From assembly GCF_004138135.1 (NCBI RefSeq), contig NZ_RYFD01000001.1, positions 186,001-250,000 of the forward strand: a stretch of 64,000 nt of DNA, written 5' to 3'. Below, in pieces: positions 11,906 to 49,984 of the stretch (within the stretch, counting starts at the first letter, position 1; every line of letters starts with the position of its first letter). Both the position numbers and the translations under genes were made by a program. Source of the DNA: Candidatus Oscillochloris fontis. GTDB taxonomy: Bacteria > Chloroflexota > Chloroflexia > Chloroflexales > Chloroflexaceae. Under the pieces are notes generated by a model. It was not told where the DNA came from. It made no database searches and saw only the letters and a program-made list of their open reading frames with translations.

Positions 11906-12064
11906 CTGTTCACGATGGGGTAAACGGGTTGCCTTCTCACGAGCGGAGCCTCTTTTTGACGCAAAGGCGCGAAGACGCAAAGGCAGTGATTCGTTATTAT
12001 GTTAAAAACTTTGCGCCTTTGCGTCTTTGCGTCAGAATCTGGGTTCTAGGAGAAGTGTGAATAG
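11906..12064. repeat. MITE-like CTGTTCAC element, copy A
   Basis: Non-coding palindromic element filling the nuoM2-nuoN spacer. It begins CTGTTCAC and ends in a degenerate GTGAATAG. The core is TTGACGCAAAGGCGCGAAGA and its complement GCGTCTTTGCGTCA separated by an AT-rich loop. Six other copies in this window share ends and core (18083, 21299, 25641, 26908, 32500, 49869). The right end carries CTAGGAG. Confidence 0.85.
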
Positions 12065-12084
12065 CTACTACTACGGAGTGAAGC

Positions 12085-18041: not shown

Positions 18042-18082
18042 GCTTATTGGGGCGGGGCGCGCTATAATGCGCCACCTACGTA

Positions 18083-18206
18083 ATGTTCACGCTTGGGGTA
18101 CACAAAGTTCTCGTATTGACGCTAAGGCGCCAAGACGCAAAGGTTATATTGAAGGCTTTGCGTCTTGGCGTTTTGGCGTCAAACTTTAGATGCTAGGAAC
18201 AGTGCA
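18083..18206. repeat. MITE-like CTGTTCAC element, copy B
   Basis: Left end ATGTTCACGC, core TTGACGCTAAGGCGCCAAGA against TTGGCGTTTTGGCGTCAA, right end AGGAACAGTGCAG. Sits between two convergent genes. Ends are more degenerate than in copies C and E. Confidence 0.8.
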
Positions 18207-21298: not shown

Positions 21299-21436
21299 CC
21301 GTTCACGATGGGGGTAAACGGATTATCATTCCTACGCAAAACGACAGCTTGACGCAAAGGCGCGAAGACGCAAAGGTTTTATTGAAGGCTTTGCGCCTTT
21401 GCGTCAAAATCTTGATGTTCGGGGCAGTGTGAACAG
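21299..21436. repeat. MITE-like CTGTTCAC element, copy C
   Basis: Left end CCGTTCACGATGGGG, core TTGACGCAAAGGCGCGAAGA against GCGCCTTTGCGTCAA, right end GTGTGAACAGC. Very close to copy A in the left flank (ATGGGG-TAAACGG). Confidence 0.85.
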
Positions 21437-21589
21437 CTACGTTAGACTATCGAGAGGATGGGGGATATGCAAATTGGGGGATAAAGAGGTTCCCGTGAAA
21501 TAGTGATGACGGGTTCAACGTACTCGCTGAAGATGCCAATGACACCGATCTTTCGACCACCCGCTTAGTCGTATTATACCACAAACTGT

Positions 21590-25628: not shown

Positions 25629-25640
25629 TGTGGCTCGTAA

Positions 25641-25776
25641 CTGTTCACATTTCTCCTAGCTTCCAGGTTTTGACGCAAAGACGCAAAGGCGCAAAGCCTG
25701 CAAGATACACCCCAATCAAATCCTTTGCGTCTCTGCGCCTTTGCGTCTAAATTCTGGATTTCGGAGTAGTAAACAG
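25641..25776. repeat. MITE-like CTGTTCAC element, copy D
   Basis: Left end CTGTTCACATTTCTCCTAGC, core TTGACGCAAAGACGCAAAGG against GCCTTTGCGTCTAAA, right end TCGGAGTAGTAAACAG. Lies 15 bases before menC, so its right end forms part of that leader. Confidence 0.85.
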
Positions 25777-26897: not shown

Positions 26898-26907
26898 GTT
26901 CGTGCAA

Positions 26908-27050
26908 CTGTTCACACTTGGGTTAAACCGAAGCCTTGTGTTGACGCCAAGGCGCAAAGACGCAAAGATTTTGATTGGAACTTCTATTGAAGACTTTGCG
27001 CCTTGGCGTCTTTGCGTCAAAACCTGGATGTTAGGAGATATAGTGAACAG
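26908..27050. repeat. MITE-like CTGTTCAC element, copy E
   Basis: The best-preserved copy: perfect terminal CTGTTCAC and GTGAACAG, core TTGACGCCAAGGCGCAAAGA against GCGTCTTTGCGTCAA. Sits between convergent menC and the 27096 gene. Confidence 0.9.
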
Positions 27051-32499: not shown

Positions 32500-32680
32500 C
32501 TGTTCACGCTTCTGATAGAACAGTAGCGGTTGCGATTTTGACGCAAAGCCGCCAAGGCGCAAAGTTTCAGCATGCACTATATCTTTCAGCAGAGCCGTTC
32601 AACATGGCTAACTACAAACCTTTGCGTCTTCGCGCCTTTGCGCCAAAAAACGGTTATATCTTCACTCCAAATGGAAACAG
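32500..32680. repeat. MITE-like CTGTTCAC element, copy F
   Basis: Left end GTAACTGTTCACGC and right end GGAAACAGTTACC form terminal repeats; core TTGACGCAAAGCCGCCAAGG against CGCGCCTTTGCGCCAAA with a long loop. The most divergent and longest copy; it splits the carboxylase genes. Confidence 0.7.
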
Positions 32681-32692
32681 TTACCTTTGCGC

Positions 32693-34249: not shown

Positions 34250-35071
34250 TCAGGCTTCGGTAACGATGGTGATTACGATGCCGTTGCTGGTGCGCCACCA
34301 ACCGTGTAGCGCAACGGGGCTGAGCGCGGTTCTGATGGTGATGCTGCTCCACATGGGGCATGTGCAAAGCCCCTGACCCAGCCCGTAAACGGGCGGGCGA
34401 GGTTTGCAAAGCCCGCCTACGCGGGCTGATGCTAGGCCGCGTAGGCGGCCTTCGCCGTGATAGCCCGCCCGTTTACGGGCTGGGCGACTAGGCAGACACG
34501 TCACACTGCGCGTATCCACGCGCAAGCCGTGGCGGGTCACCTTGAGCGTAGCCTCTTTGGCGCTCCAGATTGCCGTGGCCAGGGTGTCATACAGATCGGG
34601 TGGAGTGCTGGTCAACAGATCCAACTCGGCGCGGGTGTAGTAGCTCTGGGCGAAGGCGGCTCCACGCGGCGCGATCTGTTCGAGGTCAATCCCCAGCCGG
34701 GTGTGACCAAGATGTAAGGCACAGGCGGCATGTTCACCACTATGGCTCAGGCTGATCTGCATAGTGTCCAGGGTGCGCTGGATGGTGGGGTCAGTTGACG
34801 TAAGGTAGGGCGCACCATCAGCATCACTCAGCACCATAATCGCCGTGAGCGGTAGATCGGCCCCGCATGTGGCATGCACCAGCCGCTTGGCCGTCCAGCG
34901 CCCGTGGAGCCAATCGGCTTGGCGTCGGGCGTGCGTGAACTGGGCGTAGACGGCCTGCTCGGCGGGGGCCAAGAAGTGATCGGGGGCGGGCATGGCGCTG
35001 CGTTGGGTGACGAGCCAGGTGAACATAGGTTGCATGGTGTGGGGGGCAAATCTGCTTGACCGTTGCGTCAT
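34250..35071 (-). CDS. Sfp-type 4'-phosphopantetheinyl transferase with in-frame palindrome insertion
   Basis: Sfp/Gsp-type enzyme that converts apo carrier proteins to the holo form. LHGRWTAKRLVHATCG near the N terminus, HTRLGIDLEQI (first metal site) and the signature WSAKEATLKVTRHGLRVDTR are complete. After DTRSV the family pattern is broken by about 50 residues (CLPSRPARKRAGYHGEG to GLGQGLCTCPM) translated from a palindromic element at 34351-34490, then resumes as WSSITIRTALSPVALHGWWR to the end. The insertion lies C-terminal of the catalytic motif. It sits next to the megasynthase it would serve. Starts at 35080 (GTG) and 35035 are alternatives. Confidence 0.85.
   Translation of the reverse strand: MTQRSSRFAPHTMQPMFTWLVTQRSAMPAPDHFLAPAEQAVYAQFTHARRQADWLHGRWTAKRLVHATCGADLPLTAIMVLSDADGAPYLTSTDPTIQRTLDTMQISLSHSGEHAACALHLGHTRLGIDLEQIAPRGAAFAQSYYTRAELDLLTSTPPDLYDTLATAIWSAKEATLKVTRHGLRVDTRSVTCLPSRPARKRAGYHGEGRLRGLASARVGGLCKPRPPVYGLGQGLCTCPMWSSITIRTALSPVALHGWWRTSNGIVITIVTEA
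34377..34484. repeat. 108-base palindromic element inside the PPTase gene
   Basis: Perfect 22-base terminal arms (CCCAGCCCGTAAACGGGCGG(GC) and complement) flank inner palindromes GCCCGCCTACGCGGGC and GCCGCGTAGGCGGC. Total length 108 = 36 codons, so the reading frame is preserved. A smaller GGGGC/GCCCC stem flanks it at 34355-34374. Confidence 0.85.
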
Positions 35072-35207
35072 GACCCTCACCCCCCTAGCCCCCCTCTCCC
35101 GTTCGCTGCGCGAACAGGCGAGGGGGGGATACGCTCCGGAATACCCCAGCCATGTGCCCCCCTCTCCTGTGGGCGAAGCCCACGGGAGAGGGGCTGGGGG
35201 TGAGGGC
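35072..35207. repeat. Large inverted repeat between megasynthase and PPTase genes
   Basis: GACCCTCACCCCCCTAGCCC on the left matches GGGGCTGGGGGTGAGGGCC on the right, enclosing smaller hairpins GTTCGCTGCGCGAAC and CTGTGGGCGAAGCCCACGGG. The region forms the PPTase leader on the minus strand. Confidence 0.75.
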
Positions 35208-35237: not shown

Positions 35238-38200
35238 TTACAACTCCACCGTTCCGGGCAGCGCGATGGTGTGGTAGCCACGCATCGCGACATAGACGTT
35301 GCCCGCTTCATCGCGCACCTGGGCATCGAAGAGACCTTCGGATACCGGGGTGACAATGGCGTAGAGTTGCGGATCGCCGGGGGGCGGCGTGGCGCGGAAG
35401 ACCGAGACCGAATCGATCTCGGCGGGTAGGGCCAGCACGCCATCGTGCGACGCCTGCCAGATCCCGGCGGTCTGGAAGCAGAACTCGATCAGCAGCGGGT
35501 CTATCAGCGTGGCCGCGTCGGGCGGCTCAATCGCCGGGGGGCGATCATTGGACATCACGCCAATCGCTCGGCCCTCGTCTATCAGCACCCGATCCAAGAC
35601 CTGGTAGGCCGGGCCGTGGAAGTAGACACCATAGATGTCGGCGGTGGTATAGACGCGCACCTCGTCCGAGACCGGCCAGAGCGGGGCCGGTTCGGGTGGC
35701 TCGACGGGGGTGCGGCTGAGTAGCACGTCGGCGCTGAAGTGGAGCGTGATCTGTTCGGGTAGCCCCTCCTTGGGTGGCTTGAGCACCGAGCGCAATTCCG
35801 TATGCGCGATCAGGTCGCCGTTGGGCTGCGGGCGCACACTGGCACGCAGGTAGAGTGTGCGCGGCTGGTCGCGGTAGAACTTGAAGGGACTAGCGAAGCG
35901 GTCGTGGTCAATCTCGGCGATCTGGTAGCCCGGTGCCAGCAGGCTGGCAATCTCGGCGAAGGCTTCGGTACCCATCACGCCGGGGAGGACGGCGGTACCC
36001 TCGATGCGGTGATCATCGAGGAAGGGTTGCTGCTGCGGGTTCTCCAGCGTCTCGGCCTCGATCCCGCCGTAGAGACAGGCCGAGGTGAGGGTGCCGATCA
36101 TCGCTAGGGGCGGCTCGCGGGTGGCGAGTAGCGCCTTGACCCGCTCAGGATCGAGGCCACCCTGGGGAGCCAGTTCAGCGGTGAGGATGCCCAGATCCAT
36201 CCCCACCAGGATCTCGCCGCGTGTCCCACCAGCGGTCAGTTCGCGGCGGATGGTGGGAATACCAACTTCGGGCGGCAGCATGGTGATACCCGCCGCCTCC
36301 ATGATCTTGGGAATGGAGCCACGGGTGGCCATCCCGATGCCGCCCCACGCAGTCCAGTCAATCACGATGCCGCGTGTCTGCGGGCGGGTGCGGCGCAGCG
36401 AACTGGTGATCTTGCAGAGCAGATCGTTGGCCGCGCTGTAGTCGGGTTGGCCGCTGTTGCCGAAGCGTCCGGCCACCGAACTGAAGGCGACGGTCGCGCC
36501 GATGGGGATGGCCTTGGCCGCGTTGAGCAGGCTGAAGAAGCCGTCAGCCTTGATGTCGAAGACCATGTCGAACTCACGCGGCTCCTTGGAGGGCATGCTC
36601 TTACTGATCTCGATGCCACCCGCGTGGAGCAGCACATCAATGCGCCCGTGGCGTTCGGCCACTTCGGCCACCACTGCGGCGACTGCCGGGCCATCGAGCA
36701 GGTTGAGGCTGCGGTAGTGGGCCGTGCCACCCGCCGCCTGCACCGCCTCAATCGCCCGCAGCGCCGCATCACTGCGCTCGATCTGGGCTAGACGACGCTC
36801 GATCTGCACCGGCGTCGGGCGCTCACCGGCGGCCTTCAGCTCCTCGATCAGACTCAGCTTGAGCGCCTCACGGTCGCTGCGGAACTGCGCGATCTGCGGA
36901 TCGTTCGCCTCTGGGGTCGGTGTCAGGTCGAGCAGGTAGAAGATGCCACCGCTGGCCCCGGCGAGGTCGGCGACGATGGCGTTGGTGATGCCCCCCGCCG
37001 CCCCGGTGACAACGAAGACGCTCTCCTGCCCCAGCACCATGCCGGGGTTGCCGTCGGCGGCGGGGAGTTCCTGGAAGTTGATGCTGAAGCGCAGCCCTTC
37101 GTGGTAGCCCACCTCGATCACCCCAGGGTCATAGAGCGTCTCAGCGATCAGCGCCTCCGCCGGATCGGCGGTCTTGCGGTTCAACTCAAAGTCCACCGCC
37201 TTAACCGTCAACTCGATACGTTCGCGCTTGAACGACTTGGTGAGACCCGTCACACCACCACCCAGCGGGGCACTCGCGCCCGCCTCTTCGTAGCCGTGCA
37301 GACCACCCAGCCGCGTTGCGGAGACGAGGAAGTGTTGCGGGCCGCTGAAGTGCGCGTAGAGCGTGCGCAGGGTCAGGAAGAGGTTCTTCACTCGCCCGCG
37401 AGTCGCCTCGCGGAAGGTGGCGAGATCCATCTCGTCCAGGTCGGGTTCAACATCGAGCGCGGGCAGCCAGTAGATGCCCTGGATCGGCCCTTCGGCCATC
37501 CATGCGCTCAGGCGCTCTTCGAGTTCGGTCGTGCTAGGTGGCTCCTCGAAGGTGAGCGCGACAACGCCGCGCTTCTGGAGGCGACCCACCAACGCCTTGC
37601 CAACGCCGCTGCGATCCATCATCACGATTACCCGGCTACCGCTGTCGAGCAGCGCGCCGGTGGGTTGGCACATCTCAAGTGCGGGGCGCAACACAGGCGT
37701 GGGCACCCGCCGGGGCGCACGGTCGGCCTCGGCAACATCGTAACTGACGCTGGGTGTCGGGGCGCTGCTGACCAGCGGCGCGGCGCTAGGGGCCGGAGCG
37801 CTGGCCGCCGCAGGTGCGGCCCCACCCGCCCGCAGTTCGGGGCGGTACTCATAGACAAACTCGATCACCCGCCGCAATGTCGGGTAGTCGCGCAGCGCCA
37901 AATTTTCGGGACGTGGGATGTTGAAGGCACCGCGCACGGCCTCGAAGGTCTCGGCCTGCTTGACCGTATCCACGCCCAGGTCGGCCTCCAGATCCAGATC
38001 GAGATCGAGCATCTCGGTGGGGTAGCCGGTCTTGTCGGCGACCAGCGCTAACACTTGGGCGGCGACCGGGTCGCTGGCGGGGGCTGCGTCACTGGTGGGG
38101 GCCGGAGCCATCACCGGCGCGGGCGCACTGCTCGGCTTCAGATCGGGGCGGTACTCATAGACAAACTCGATCACCCGCCGCAGCGTCGGGTAGTCGCGCA

Positions 38201-41200
38201 GCGCCAGATTTTCGGGACGGGGGATGTTGAAGGCACCGCGCACGGCCTCGAAGGTCTCGGCCTGCTTGACCGTGTCCACCCCCAAGTCGGCCTCTAAATC
38301 CAGGTCGAGATCGAGCATCTCGGTGGGGTAGCCGGTCTTGTCGGCGACGAGCGCCAACACCTGCTCGGCGACCGGGTCGCTGGTGGGGGCCGGGGTACTC
38401 ACCGGCGCGGCACTGACCGGGGTCGGCAGGCTTATCGGGGCTACGCTGACCGGGGCCGCGCTCACCGGCGCGGCACTGACCGGCGCGGGCGCACTGCTCG
38501 GCTTCAGATCGGGGCGGAACTGGTAGACAAACTCGATCACCCGCCGTAGGGTCGGGTAGTCGCGTAGCGCCAGATTCTCCGGGCGGGGAATGTTGAAGGC
38601 ACCCCGCACGGCCTCGAAGGTTTCAGCCTGCTTGACCGTGTCCACCCCCAGGTCGGCCTCTAGATCCAGATCGAGATCGAGCATCTCGGTGGGGTAGCCG
38701 GTCTTATCGGCGACGAGCGCCAACACCTGCTCGGCGACTGCATCGTAGACCGGAGCCGGGCTACTCACCGGGGCAGGCGCGGCGACCGGAGTGGGTGCGG
38801 GCGCACTCACCGGGGTCGGGGCGGCTACTGGGGCGGGCGCAGCCTTCAGATCGGGGCGGGACTCGTAGACAAACTCGATCACCCGCCGCAGCGTCGGGTA
38901 GTCACGCAGCGCCAGGTTCTCCGGGCGGGGAATGTTGAAGGCACCCCGCACGGCCTCGAAGGTCTCGGCCTGTTTGACCGTGTCCACCCCCAAGTCGGCC
39001 TCAAGGTCGAGGTCGAGATCGAGCATATCCGAGGGGTAGCCGGTCTTATCGGCGACGAGCGCCAGCACCTGCGCCTCCACCGGATTGACCGTCGGGGCGG
39101 CTGGAGCGACTGGGGCGGGCGGCGGCGCAACGGGCGCGGGCGCACTGACCTGCTTGAGTTCAGGCCGCGACTCGTAGACAAACTCGATCACCCGCCGCAG
39201 CGTCGGGTAGTCACGCAGCGCCAGATTCTCCGGGCGCGGGATGTTGAAGGCACCCCGCACGGCCTCGAAGGTCTCGGCCTGTTTGACCGTGTCCACCCCC
39301 AAATCGGCCTCAAGGTCCAGATCCAGATCGAGCATATCCGAGGGGTAGCCGGTCTTATCGGCCACCAGCGCCAGCACCTGCGCCTCCACCGGATTGACCG
39401 TCGGGGCGGCTGGGGCGACTGGGGCGGGCGGCGGCGCGACCGGGGCGGGCGCACTGACCTGCTTGAGTTCGGGCCGCGACTCGTAGACAAACTCGATCAC
39501 CCGCCGCAGCGTCGGGTAGTCGCGTAGCGCCAAGTTCTCCGGGCGCGGGATGTTGAAGGCACCCCGGACGGCCTCGAAGGTCTCGGCCTGCTTGACCGTA
39601 TCCACGCCCAAATCAGCCTCAAGGTCGAGGTCGAGATCGAGCATATCCGAGGGGTAGCCGGTCTTTTCGGCCACAAGTGTCAGCACCTGCGCCTCCACCG
39701 GATTGACCGTTGGGGCGGGCGGCGGCGCAACCGGGGCAGGAGCCGGAGCTACGGCGACGGGCGGCGGCGCAACCGGGGCGGGAGCCGGAGCCACGGCAAC
39801 GGGTGGCGGCGCAACCGGGGCGGGAGCCGGAGCCACGGCAACGGGTGGCGGCGCAACCGGGGCGGGAGCCGAAGCCACCGCGACGGGCGGCGGCGCAACC
39901 GGGGCGGCGTAGCTGCGCTGTGTCGGCTGCGGGAGATCCGCAACCTGCTGGGGGCTACCGGGGGTGGCGGCGCGCACCATCGGGCCGGTGCCGTAGCGCC
40001 ACGGGCTAGGCGCGGGAGTACGGGCGGGGGCGCTCGTGCTCTTCACCCGTAATACACGCTGCACCACCTCAGTCTCAGCGCGGTCATAGCCGGTGATCTG
40101 ATCGAGCCAGAAGCGGTAATGCGCGGGCGAGTCGACGCGATCCAAGCCGCCCGGCACGCGGCGCAGCAGGGTCAACGCCAACTGCGACCCGAAGCCAGCC
40201 GCAAGGTGGATGGCGTATTGCACCGGGTAACGCCCACCCCGGCTGAGGTTGAGCAGCCCTAGTTCGGGGTCAATCTCACGGAAGTTGGGTACCGGCGGCA
40301 CCACCCCGTGCTCCAGGATCTTCACCGCGATGACATCTTCCACCCCCACACCCATGGCGTGGCCGGTAAAGCCCTTGGTGTTAGCGATAATGATCGAGTC
40401 GGCGGCGGGGCCGAAGTTGTGGCGCAGCGCGGCTACTTCGGCGGCGGCACTGCCTCCACGCGCCGGGGTGAAGGTCTCGTGGGAGACAAAGACCGTCTGC
40501 GGGGCGATGGCGAGGCGGTTGATGCCGAAGCGCCGCTCGGCACTGACGATCAGCCGATCCATCACCTGGGAGATGTGGTCTACATTCAGGCGCGTACCGT
40601 GGAAGGCGCTGTTGGCAGTCTCGCTGGCCAGCACCTCGACAATCCCGCGCATACCGCGCTCGCGCACGGCATCTTCACTCTCGACGACCAGGGCGCAGGC
40701 TCCCATCCCAAGGATCGTGCCGTGGCGGCGCTTATCGAAGGGCAGCGCGGCCTCAGCCACCGCATCATCGGTGGCGGCAGCGCCGGTAGCCAAGAAGCCC
40801 GCCCCGACCCACTCCATCAGCCGGTCGCTGGTCACATCATCGCTGGCGATCACCAGCACGCGGCGGCAGCGCCCGTTGCGGATCCAGTCTTCGGCCAGCG
40901 CGATGGCCTGGGTGGTACTGGCACAGGCGGCATTGACCGAGGTATTCGGGCCGCGTGCGCCGATATATTCAGCAAACTGGCTGTGGCCCATGGCCAGCAC
41001 GCGGAAGATGAAGCGCCGGTCGAAGGTGTAGGGTTCGCGCGCCAGATCCTCACGCAGCGCCGCGATCATACGGTTGATCTCGCCCAAGGCGCTCGGATCA
41101 CTCACCGCACTGCGCAACTTCTCAAGCTGCTCGACCTGGGTTTGACGGCTCTCGTAGGTGAAGTAGCGCATCAAATCATCGGCCATGCGATCCATACCGG

Positions 41201-44200
41201 GGAAGGCCGACGCAAAGATCACGCCGGTCTCATCGCGCAGCGGTTCGGGCAACATCCAGCGATCCGGCAGATGCGTACCTCTGCTGGTCAGGCGGTAGGT
41301 CTGCACCAGCGGCAACCCGGCCTCACGCAGCGCATCCAGACCAGCGGCCATGGCCAGTTGGGTGGTGCGATCCAGCGCCTCGATCAGCGCGTCGGGCACC
41401 CCATACTCCGCGTGCAGATCGAAAGAACCGGCGCGTCCGGCGAGGCGCACAACATCATCGGGGTTATCAATCGCCACAAACTGGCCGCCGCCATCTTCGC
41501 CCTTGACCAAGCGAATGATATTCTTGCGCAGCATCATCGCCCGGAAGCGTTCGGGGATGAGATCAATAAACTGCTCGCCACGCAGAATCCGCAGCGCATT
41601 CTCCGGGTCCATCAGCGACTTGGCCGGGCCGGGCAGACCCAGGCCAGTGCCGGAGATGACCACCGAACCGCTCGGCACCTCATCACGATCATAGACCTGC
41701 GGGCCACGCGCCTGCGCCTGGGGCTGGGCGGCCTGCAATGCCTGAGCCAGCAGCGACCCTAGCGCTTCGAGGCCCGCCGGAGCCAGTGGCGCACTTGGCT
41801 GGGGGCCACTTCCATTGGGTGAGGTCACAGTTGTCTCCTCTAGGATGGCGCGGGGAAGTTCGGCGGGCGGCGCAACGTGGGCGACGGGTGCTTCAGATTG
41901 CACCAACCCCGCCGCATAGAGGCCGCACAACGCCTGGTTGAAACTCGCCAACTCGCCATTCTTGGGATGGTTGGTAAAGAGCGACACCAGATCGGGCTTA
42001 CTGCCCAGCACATCATCAACAAAGCCCTTGAGCGCCCGCTTCGGCCCGCACTCGACAAAGACGCGGCAGCCTTCGGCGTAGAGCGTCTCCAGGCCGCGTA
42101 CCCACTGCACCGGCGAGGCGATCTGCTGTTCGAGGATGTCCTTGATCGCCTCAACATCGGTTGGGTAGATGCCACCAGTGACATTCGCCACCAGCGGGAG
42201 GCGCGGGGGCGCAATATGCAGCCGGTTGAGCAGTTTACGCAACGGGGCCGCCGCCGGAGCGACGATGCGGGTGTGGAAGGCGTGGCTCACCGGGATGCGC
42301 AGGGCTTGGTAGCCCTTGGCGACGAAGCGGCCAATGGCTTGCTCAACTGCCTTGCTCTCCCCGCCGATGACGGCTTGGCCGTAGCTATTGATGTTCGCCG
42401 CCACCACATAGCCCTCACACTCGGCGAGAGTCTGGGTGATCACATCGAGCGGTGCCATCACCGCCGCCATCCAGCCGTTATCATCCACACTCACGCGGGT
42501 CATCTCGGCGCCACGGGCGGCGGCAGCCTCCAGAGACTCGGCGAAGGGCATAATGCCGGCACTCACCAGTGCGGCATATTCACCCAAGGAGTGGCCCATC
42601 ACCATATCCGGGCGGATGCCGTAGCTCTCTAGCAGCTTCATCATCGCAATATCGAGCGTGAGCATGGCGGGCTGGGTGATCGCCGTCTGCATCAACTCGC
42701 GCTCGGCCTTCTTGAGTACTGCCGGGTCATCCCCTTCGACAAAGAGATAACTGGTGAGCGAACGCCCCAGGATGGGCGTCATCACCGCATCAGCCTCGGC
42801 AAAGACCTGCGCCACCACGGGCGAGATCGTGGCCAACTCGCGGCCCATGTTGAGGTACTGGCTGCCCTGGCCGGGGAAGAGGAAGGCCACTTTGCCAGCG
42901 GGCTTGCCACTACCACGGAAGACACCCTGGCCTTGCAGGGCGCGCCACGCCGCCGGGCTGTGCATCGCAGCGGCCTTGCTCGCCTTGGCCAACTTCTCGC
43001 CCAGATCAACCGCATCGGCAAAATCAATCACCAAGCGCTCCGGCTGGGCCAGGATCGCCTTGTCGGGCAACGCCAGCGGCGGCGTCCAACCCGTAGCCAC
43101 CCGTGCCACCACGGACTGCAACTCGGCCAGCAGCGCGGCCTCGGTGGCCGCCCCCAGCGCCAAGATACCGCGCACCGGCGCTGGCGTGGCCGCCCGGCCA
43201 TCCCCCGATCCGGCTCCATCACCCTGGGGCAGACTCACGCCACTATAGCGCTGCGGCTCAGTGCGGATCATCCCCGGCACATACTCCTCCAACACCAGAT
43301 GGAAGTTGGTACCCCCGAAGCCATAGGCACTCACCGCCGCCCGCCGGGGCAGATTGCCACGGCGTTCCCACGCCTCTGGGTTATGTTGGAGGCGGAAGGG
43401 GCTATGCGCAAAATCGGCCTTCGGATTGGGGCGCTCGGCATTCAGCGTCGGCGGCAACACCTTCGCGTGCAGCGCCATCACCGCCTTGAGCAACCCGGCT
43501 GCGCCCGCACCCGCCTTCAGGTGGCCAATGTTGCTCTTGGCCGAACCCAGCCCAATGCTGCCCTGCTCGGCATGCGCAAAGACCTTGGTCAGGCTCTCCA
43601 ACTCAGCCACATCACCCACGCGGGTACTCGTGCCGTGGGCCTCGACAAGGTTACATGTCGCTGGGTCAAGCCCGGCATTGCGCCAAGCACGCTCAATTGC
43701 AAAGATCTGCCCAACCGGGTTGGGAGCAGTGATGCCCTTGCCCTTACCATCGGACGAAGCGCCCACGCCCCGGATCACCGCATAGATACGGTCGCCATCG
43801 CGCTCGGCATCTTCGAGCCGCTTGAGCAGGAAGACTGCGCCGCCCTCACCCATCACAAAGCCATCGGCCCCATCGCCAAACGGGCGCGTGCCAGTGGCAC
43901 TGAGCGCCCCAATCTTACAGAACTTGACGAAGGTAGACGGCCCCATATTGCGGTCAATCCCGCCGGTGAGTACCGCATCCACACGCCCATCGGAGAGCAA
44001 CTCCACCGCCGCATCCACTGCCGCAAAGGTCGAGGCGCATGCCGCATCGGTAATAAAGTTGGGGCCACGCAGATTGAGCAGATTGGCCACTCGCCCAGCC
44101 ACAATATTGGGCAACTCACCGGGCATCGAGTCCTCAGTGATCGAGGGCAAGGTACGATCCATCTGTGCGTGGAACTGGGCTACCAACTCAGCCTGCACCG

Positions 44201-44681
44201 CCGGAGCCAAACTGTGGAACATCGGCGTAGCACGCAACATATTGGCAAATTCGGGGAAGACAACCCGCTGGTGGGTGTGGTAATGCAACTCACCCCCCAT
44301 CGCCGTGCCCAGAATCACCCCGGTATTCTCCGTATTCAGCGGTCGGTCGGGGTAGCCATAATCAGCCAGCGCCTCAGCGGCACAGGTCGCGGCCCACTGC
44401 TGCCCCTGATCCATCGCCTGAGCAACTTTAGGAGGAATACGAAACCGCTGCCAATCAAAGCGAAAATCACGAACCCAACCCCCAATTTTGGTGTAACTCT
44501 TATCGGGCGCACTAGGGTCGGGGTCATAATAATCAGCGACACTCCAGCGGTCGGCAGGAGTCTCGCTGATACTGTAGCGCTTCCCAACAACATTGGCCCA
44601 GAAAGCCTGGGCGCTGGGTGCATCGGGCAAGACAGCCCCCACACCCACAACGGCAATAGCACGACGTGCGACCTGATCCAT
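35238..44681 (-). CDS. PUFA-synthase-like megasynthase KS-AT-KS-ACPx6-KR-DH
   Basis: 3147 residues, an iterative-type polyketide/fatty acid synthase. Order: KS1 (about 8-480; [37 protein letters not shown]), AT (600-900; [22 protein letters not shown]), KS2 (1010-1510; [14 protein letters not shown] but [12 protein letters not shown]), a Pro/Ala linker of 16-residue repeats, six carrier domains (1660-2280), KR (2540-2830; [28 protein letters not shown]) and a hotdog DH (2870-end; [20 protein letters not shown]). Tandem carriers are a hallmark of PUFA synthases. Every carrier reads [10 protein letters not shown]: Thr where Ser normally takes phosphopantetheine. I see no enoylreductase or thioesterase. 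ATG 44681 follows AGGAGC. Product unknown. Confidence 0.9.
37800..39700. repeat. Six near-identical carrier-domain repeats in the megasynthase gene
   Basis: Carrier copies are centred on Thr codons at 37965, 38271, 38637, 38979, 39288 and 39597; spacings 306, 366, 342, 309 and 309 bases, all multiples of three. The DNA of about 200 bases per copy is nearly identical, more so than the linkers, which suggests homogenisation by recombination. Confidence 0.9.
39715..39905. repeat. 48-base tandem repeat encoding Pro/Ala/Val linker
   Basis: About four copies of a 48-base unit coding for [14 protein letters not shown]-type sequence between KS2 and the first carrier domain. It would form a flexible arm and may vary in length between strains. 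Confidence 0.85.
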
Positions 44682-44744
44682 TGGTCGGCTCCTATTCGAT
44701 AGCCCCCGCGCAGGCCGAAGCCGCAGCGCGGGGGCAGTCACTAC

Positions 44745-49868: not shown

Positions 49869-49984
49869 CGTGTAACTTGGGGGAAATAGAAGTCTCATGT
49901 TGACGCCAAGGAGCAAAGGTTCTGACTGGAGTCTATCTTGAAGGCTTGGCGTCAAAACCTGGATGTGAGGAGACGTGTGAACAG
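49869..49984. repeat. MITE-like CTGTTCAC element, copy G
   Basis: Right end GGAGACGTGTGAACAGGTAC is well kept; the left end is degenerate (TGTAACTTGGGGG). Core TTGACGCCAAGGAGCAAAGG against GGCTTGGCGTCAAAA. Inserted within the SCO1664/DUF3090 trio. Confidence 0.75.

Follow-up and report, generated by a model that had tools for sequence, protein, structure and literature searches.

An old palindromic MITE very probably inserted in frame into a phosphopantetheinyl transferase gene of Candidatus Oscillochloris fontis

The window, i.e. the whole 64-kb stretch of DNA that was analysed, encodes on its minus strand an Sfp-type 4'-phosphopantetheinyl transferase (PPTase; 34250..35035) that carries an insert. 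The open reading frame spans 35080..34250 and matches PF01648 (ACPS) with an E value of 6e-18. Its probable start is located at 35035, from whose Met the PPTases of relatives align, and an extension to the GTG at 35080 is possible. The adjoining gene on the same strand (35238-44741) encodes a large polyketide/PUFA-like synthase, a likely substrate of the PPTase, in which about six nearly identical ACP domains are arranged in tandem.

The insert is a minus-strand hairpin of 108 nt (34377-34484) that contributes 36 sense codons and corresponds approximately to residues 199-235 of the 276-aa ORF. Its outer arms of 22 nt each, 34463..34484 (5' in gene sense) and 34377..34398 (3' in gene sense), are perfect reverse complements of each other and enclose an inner stem-loop (GGCCGCCTACGCGGCC / GCCCGCGTAGGCGGGC; about 34406..34455), the part of the element most common to other copies. 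An earlier note on this DNA had described a 108-base element with perfect 22-base arms and 36 codons in the PPTase frame, which our analysis confirmed; the interval proposed for it (34351-34490) contains the element, but is slightly wider than the core. The folding energy of the hairpin is -93 kcal/mol (z = -12 in comparison with dinucleotide shuffles), and the 22-nt arm, with 0 chance occurrences in shuffles, is present within the window solely at its two known places. A comparison with Rfam yielded no family at the gathering score, and weak matches to miRNAs and CRISPR repeats were dismissed as palindrome artefacts. The element is located in frame and 3' of the WSAKEA motif; it encodes the peptide PARKRAGYHGEGRLRGLASARVGGLCKPRPPVYGLG, and the insert includes the GLASAR / VGGLCKPRPPVYGLG region. 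The adjacent minus-strand stretch CAGGGGCTTTGCACATGCCCC (34354..34376), whose boundary is uncertain, is similar to the 3' flanks of the copies C46 and C118 elsewhere in the genome and probably represents an eroded right-end remnant of the element and/or host loop. Host PPTase codons restart behind it at TGG AGC AGC ATC, and the boundaries of the window copy as a whole are accurate to about 10-20 nt.

The earlier note had proposed to look for an empty site in relatives, and the PARKRAGYHGEGRLRGLASARVGGLCKPRPPVYGLG stretch is missing from each of the 15 Chloroflexales PPTases in the comparison, five of which belong to the same genus. On either side of the insertion, the alignment proceeds without a break. 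The claim that the stretch is unlike Sfp proteins and that the family pattern resumes after it thus stands, with the pattern restarting as W..ITI....LHGWWR....ITIV. Between V-T-C-L-P and the W that follows, the relatives have seven loop codons and the window has 46 codons. The net gain amounts to 39 aa or 117 nt, namely the 108-nt core and 9 nt that may be remnant ends, a duplication or host loop. The AlphaFold2 model of the PPTase reaches a pLDDT of at least 90 at 203 of 261 residues, and its top Foldseek match is Sfp (4mrt; E = 3.9e-14). The insert (192-226) is modelled as a loop joining the strands 178-182 and 230-236 with a pLDDT below 50, a low value that is expected regardless for a stretch without homologues and alignment depth. 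In this prediction, it resembles a disordered loop attached to an Sfp fold that is otherwise intact.

At the threshold used, searches of the genome with two DNA queries retrieved seven members of the family, i.e. the window copy and six others, as well as a few short fragments. The copies elsewhere in the genome that the earlier note had suggested looking for are thus present, three of them in frame in other genes. Altogether, four of the seven copies are located in frame in conserved genes and three are intergenic (C118:25705, C60, C118:18938). The open frame over the last of these lies upstream of the gene's probable start, for which reason this copy is classed as intergenic. A TnpB-like gene (PF07282; L002 1789-2901, G000:C118) adjoins an intergenic copy.

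The C46 copy is inserted in frame into a hydrogenase maturation protease next to a hydrogenase large-subunit gene; a Pfam search with the whole protease ORF gave no match, and NCBIfam TIGR00072 identified it. This insert is missing in 20 relatives and represents a net gain of about 55 residues. The C22 copy is located in the CobM/CbiG linker of a CobM-CbiG-CobJ fusion, a linker that is short or contains other repeats in alignable relatives; the repeat-derived linkers SPTTWERGLGGEGH and SPAQGEGGRGGEG were found in G016 (L279/L286) and G001 (L275). The C132 copy resides in a DUF2298 membrane protein (PF10060; E = 1.6e-214) and is missing in relatives from 13 genomes. All four genic copies (PPTase, protease, CobM fusion, DUF2298) share the strand and frame of the element and the peptide xRLRGLxxARVGGL. 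The copies within the genome differ from one another by about 9-12%, and one or two of the six frames of the element cores are open. If insertion ignored the frame, four readable copies out of four would correspond to p of about 4e-5, a value that refers to the copies retrieved at the search threshold and presupposes that they are genic.

The DUF2298 protein (L224; G000:C132:29500-35000, minus-strand frame) harbors five in-frame inserts that are missing from relatives, namely one palindromic element, three TTGACGCAAAGACGCAAAG hairpin repeats and one CGCAGAGGATACAGAGGAACGCAGAGG hairpin. In some relatives the same loops contain other repeats, and linkers derived from repeats may be a general feature of this lineage. 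The TTGACGCAAAGACGCAAAG repeat is also present in at least seven copies in the 64-kb window (11947-12069, 18080-18204, 21338-21438, 25634-25758, 26903-27049, 32533-32685, 49875-49983), none of which lies clearly within a conserved protein frame.

A class-wide search covering 158 genomes detected the element in 35 of them, mostly from the green filamentous Chloroflexales, with more than 100 first-look candidate copies each in some sister species. The alignment of about 30 copies from the sister species G005 documents the anatomy of a MITE with the terminal inverted repeat (TIR) GCAATACCGCAAAAGTCAC. Full-length copies of the sister species mostly measure 178-181 nt, have GCAATACCGCAAAAG terminal repeats and leave no room for a transposase ORF. 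In G005, the TIR occurs about 390 times versus once for the reversed control pattern, and target duplications of 8 bp comprise three perfect cases (CAAACATC/CAAACATC, GTTTCAGG/GTTTCAGG, GGCAATTG/GGCAATTG) and two with one mismatch. In the same genome, two inverted TIR pairs with a spacing of 1.8-2.0 kb flank transposase genes (L219 658-2481, G005:C40; L218 about 481-2501, G005:C76). The transposases are Mutator/IS256-like, with weak but significant matches to Transposase_mut (E = 1e-5), and the transposase ORF of L219 begins shortly before the left repeat and continues across it. Since this IS carries the same ends as the MITE, it is probably the element that moves it.

The family accordingly has the properties of a MITE: it is short and without transposase, and in the sister species it exhibits TIR, 8-bp duplications and a same-ended IS, which supports the suggestion of a mobile hairpin. 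In the window copy no recognisable TIR remains, the repeat being eroded or lost there, and a clean 8-bp duplication was sought at the window, C46 and C118 copies and found at none of them; it is hence the relatives that point to transposition of the window copy itself. The core structure shows compensatory base changes at 14 of 33 consensus pairs (16 copies), and the arms look modular. G005 also contains a shorter, highly repeated element (e.g. C1:29868-29990, C24:89226-89348, C40:13857-13979), which measures about 114-123 nt, carries the variant repeat GCAATACCGCAGAAGTAAC and apparently constitutes a second MITE subfamily.

Two in-frame insertions in sister species add to the four genes of the window's genome, and most sister-species copies are intergenic. 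The sister-species counts stem from a screen for open frames crossing the element, and among genic copies they cover those that are in frame. Long open frames over other sister-species copies (e.g. L162, L166, L168, L206) were judged by eye to be unlike real proteins and were not counted. In a ParA-type ATPase of G005, a 181-nt MITE and its perfect 8-bp duplication add a net 189 nt that are read in another frame; the function of this protein is doubtful, because the C-terminus of the ORF looks abnormal. The second case is an Eco57I-like methylase (L221/L222; G002:C198, G004:C5) with the element at the methylase/specificity boundary, in the same frame as the four genic copies of the window's genome. 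The insertion site corresponds to a clean gap in four distant homologues. Within the 300 codons before the insert, the G002 and G004 genes differ at 5, 2 and 24 sites of codon positions 1, 2 and 3, and within the insert by one synonymous change. This pattern of substitutions argues for purifying selection on the methylase that carries the insert and provides the best evidence of a gene that works with the element. The N-terminal two thirds of the two methylases are nearly identical and the C-terminal specificity part is strongly diverged from about 25 codons past the MITE, a pattern suggestive of a specificity-domain swap near the element.

The most convincing explanation, which we consider very probable, is that the window feature represents an old and trimmed palindromic MITE of Chloroflexales in the PPTase gene that is translated as a surface loop of about 39 residues. 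The MITE would have been inserted into the gene with the probable help of the Mutator/IS256-like transposase of the same-ended IS. One or two of the six frames are stop-free, and a full-length copy with its duplication often has a length divisible by three, so that a minority of the insertions would leave the gene readable, and those in flexible loops or linkers would survive. We infer that such a survival bias explains why more than half of the copies remaining in the genome are in frame. The insert is presumably translated and the PPTase has probably retained its activity, and the intact frames, the predicted fold and the purifying selection suggest that the element is tolerated in proteins.

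The PPTase might alternatively be a dying gene that was inactivated by the element and whose frame is open by luck. The species is represented by a single genome and the loop next to the insert has also changed, both of which count in favor of this reading, but there is neither a stop nor a frameshift even though element copies differ by about 9-12%. Conserved catalytic-core residues and C-terminal strands are moreover retained in a confidently predicted fold, three other unrelated genes of the genome also keep their frame, and the codon differences to relatives upstream of the insert favor third positions, albeit most of this divergence may predate the insertion. We thus regard decay of the gene as unlikely. 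Recruitment is the opposite scenario, in which the loop, or an mRNA hairpin regulating the PPTase or the neighboring polyketide/fatty-acid synthase, was positively selected. The conserved pairing among copies with its compensatory changes could be read in this way, but pairing is conserved in mobile copies generally, be they genic or not, and thus reflects the element; given that the other copies reside in unrelated genes and that no relative has the loop, a recruited function is quite unlikely.

A hairpin of this stability could also be transcribed and yet escape translation, either by ribosome hopping or by excision from the mRNA, and the bypassing of palindromic elements in the mitochondria of the yeast Magnusiomyces capitatus (cited in PMC6649704) provides a precedent. 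Such a mechanism would need neither stop-free frames nor lengths that are multiples of three, but all in-gene copies examined in this genome have both, which makes it very improbable. An assembly or binning artefact is hardly credible: the genome is a draft of 139 contigs and repeats can mislead an assembly, but the copy at issue is far from the ends of its 273-kb contig, it has a diverged sequence of its own, and the unique flanks on either side of it match the PPTase of relatives.

The old MITE in the PPTase gene may exemplify a wider process. We tentatively propose that frame-friendly MITEs of Chloroflexales, whose full-length copies with their duplication mostly amount to 186 or 189 nt, and other hairpins recurrently give rise to loops and linkers in conserved proteins, a generalization that we consider possible rather than probable. 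If it is true, a free-living phylum would continually gain protein loops from mobile hairpins, and the phenomenon would not be restricted to Rickettsiales. In-frame coding palindromes have so far been treated as largely a Rickettsiales trait with an unknown mode of mobility. Here, several conserved enzymes of a free-living group are affected, many relatives show the empty sites, and both target duplications and a candidate transposase are at hand, which makes the entry of selfish hairpins into proteins, and the question of which sites tolerate it, directly testable. Caution is also advisable in annotation, as such protein stretches derive from transposons.

The palindromic elements of Rickettsia (RPE) were reportedly described by Ogata and co-workers in 2000 and 2002, and among the papers searched we found no earlier report of such elements in Chloroflexota. 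Several other repeat families invite comparison. The coding palindromes of nematomorph mitochondria (PMC6649704) are likewise long inverted repeats within genes, but they are perfect, seem to be actively maintained and do not form a dispersed mobile family. REP/BIME sequences (GTAG/CGTC types; PMC3733652) resemble the element in their tandem GC-rich hairpin modules. REPs, however, measure 20-40 bp and are mostly extragenic, in contrast to a 108-nt core with TIRs and 8-bp duplications in genes, and they are mobilised by RAYT (Y1), whereas the same-ended IS found here encodes a Mutator/IS256-like protein. Closer equivalents are bacterial MITEs known from in-frame gene fusions, i.e. ERIC/RU-1, the 107-bp form of Correia, and QMITE1/2 of Coxiella (PMC2229807, PMC5896051), which are also non-autonomous, have TIR and target-site duplications, an internal stop-free frame and some in-gene copies. 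Some of the Coxiella MITEs are in frame, and several of the fusions affect hypothetical genes or the ends of genes (PMC5896051), whereas the insertions presented here are internal to conserved enzymes and account for four of the seven copies in one genome.

The resemblance to RPE that had been proposed for the window element holds as an analogy of behavior, i.e. in-frame insertion, several genes and a shared peptide. RPE are palindromes of 105-146 bp that are fused in frame in many genes, and gmk is active with its insert (PMC2229807). RPE are reviewed in PMC2229807 and PMC10969869, and their target-site duplication is listed as unknown; a review of 2024 considers them the outstanding case and a similar process in other prokaryotes conceivable (PMC10969869). 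Common to both families are palindromes of about 105-150 nt in frame in several unrelated conserved genes per genome, a peptide shared between insertions, some intergenic copies, and copies that are old and eroding. RPE also enter RNA genes, whereas protein genes were considered here. The host of the present element is a free-living member of Chloroflexota, with Oscillochloris and other Chloroflexales as the nearest named genomes, and not of Rickettsiales, and terminal repeats, 8-bp duplications and a same-ended IS are visible in its sister species. Because of this different host group and the visible mobility signature we do not call the element a member of the RPE family, and regard it, by analogy, as RPE-like in its behavior.
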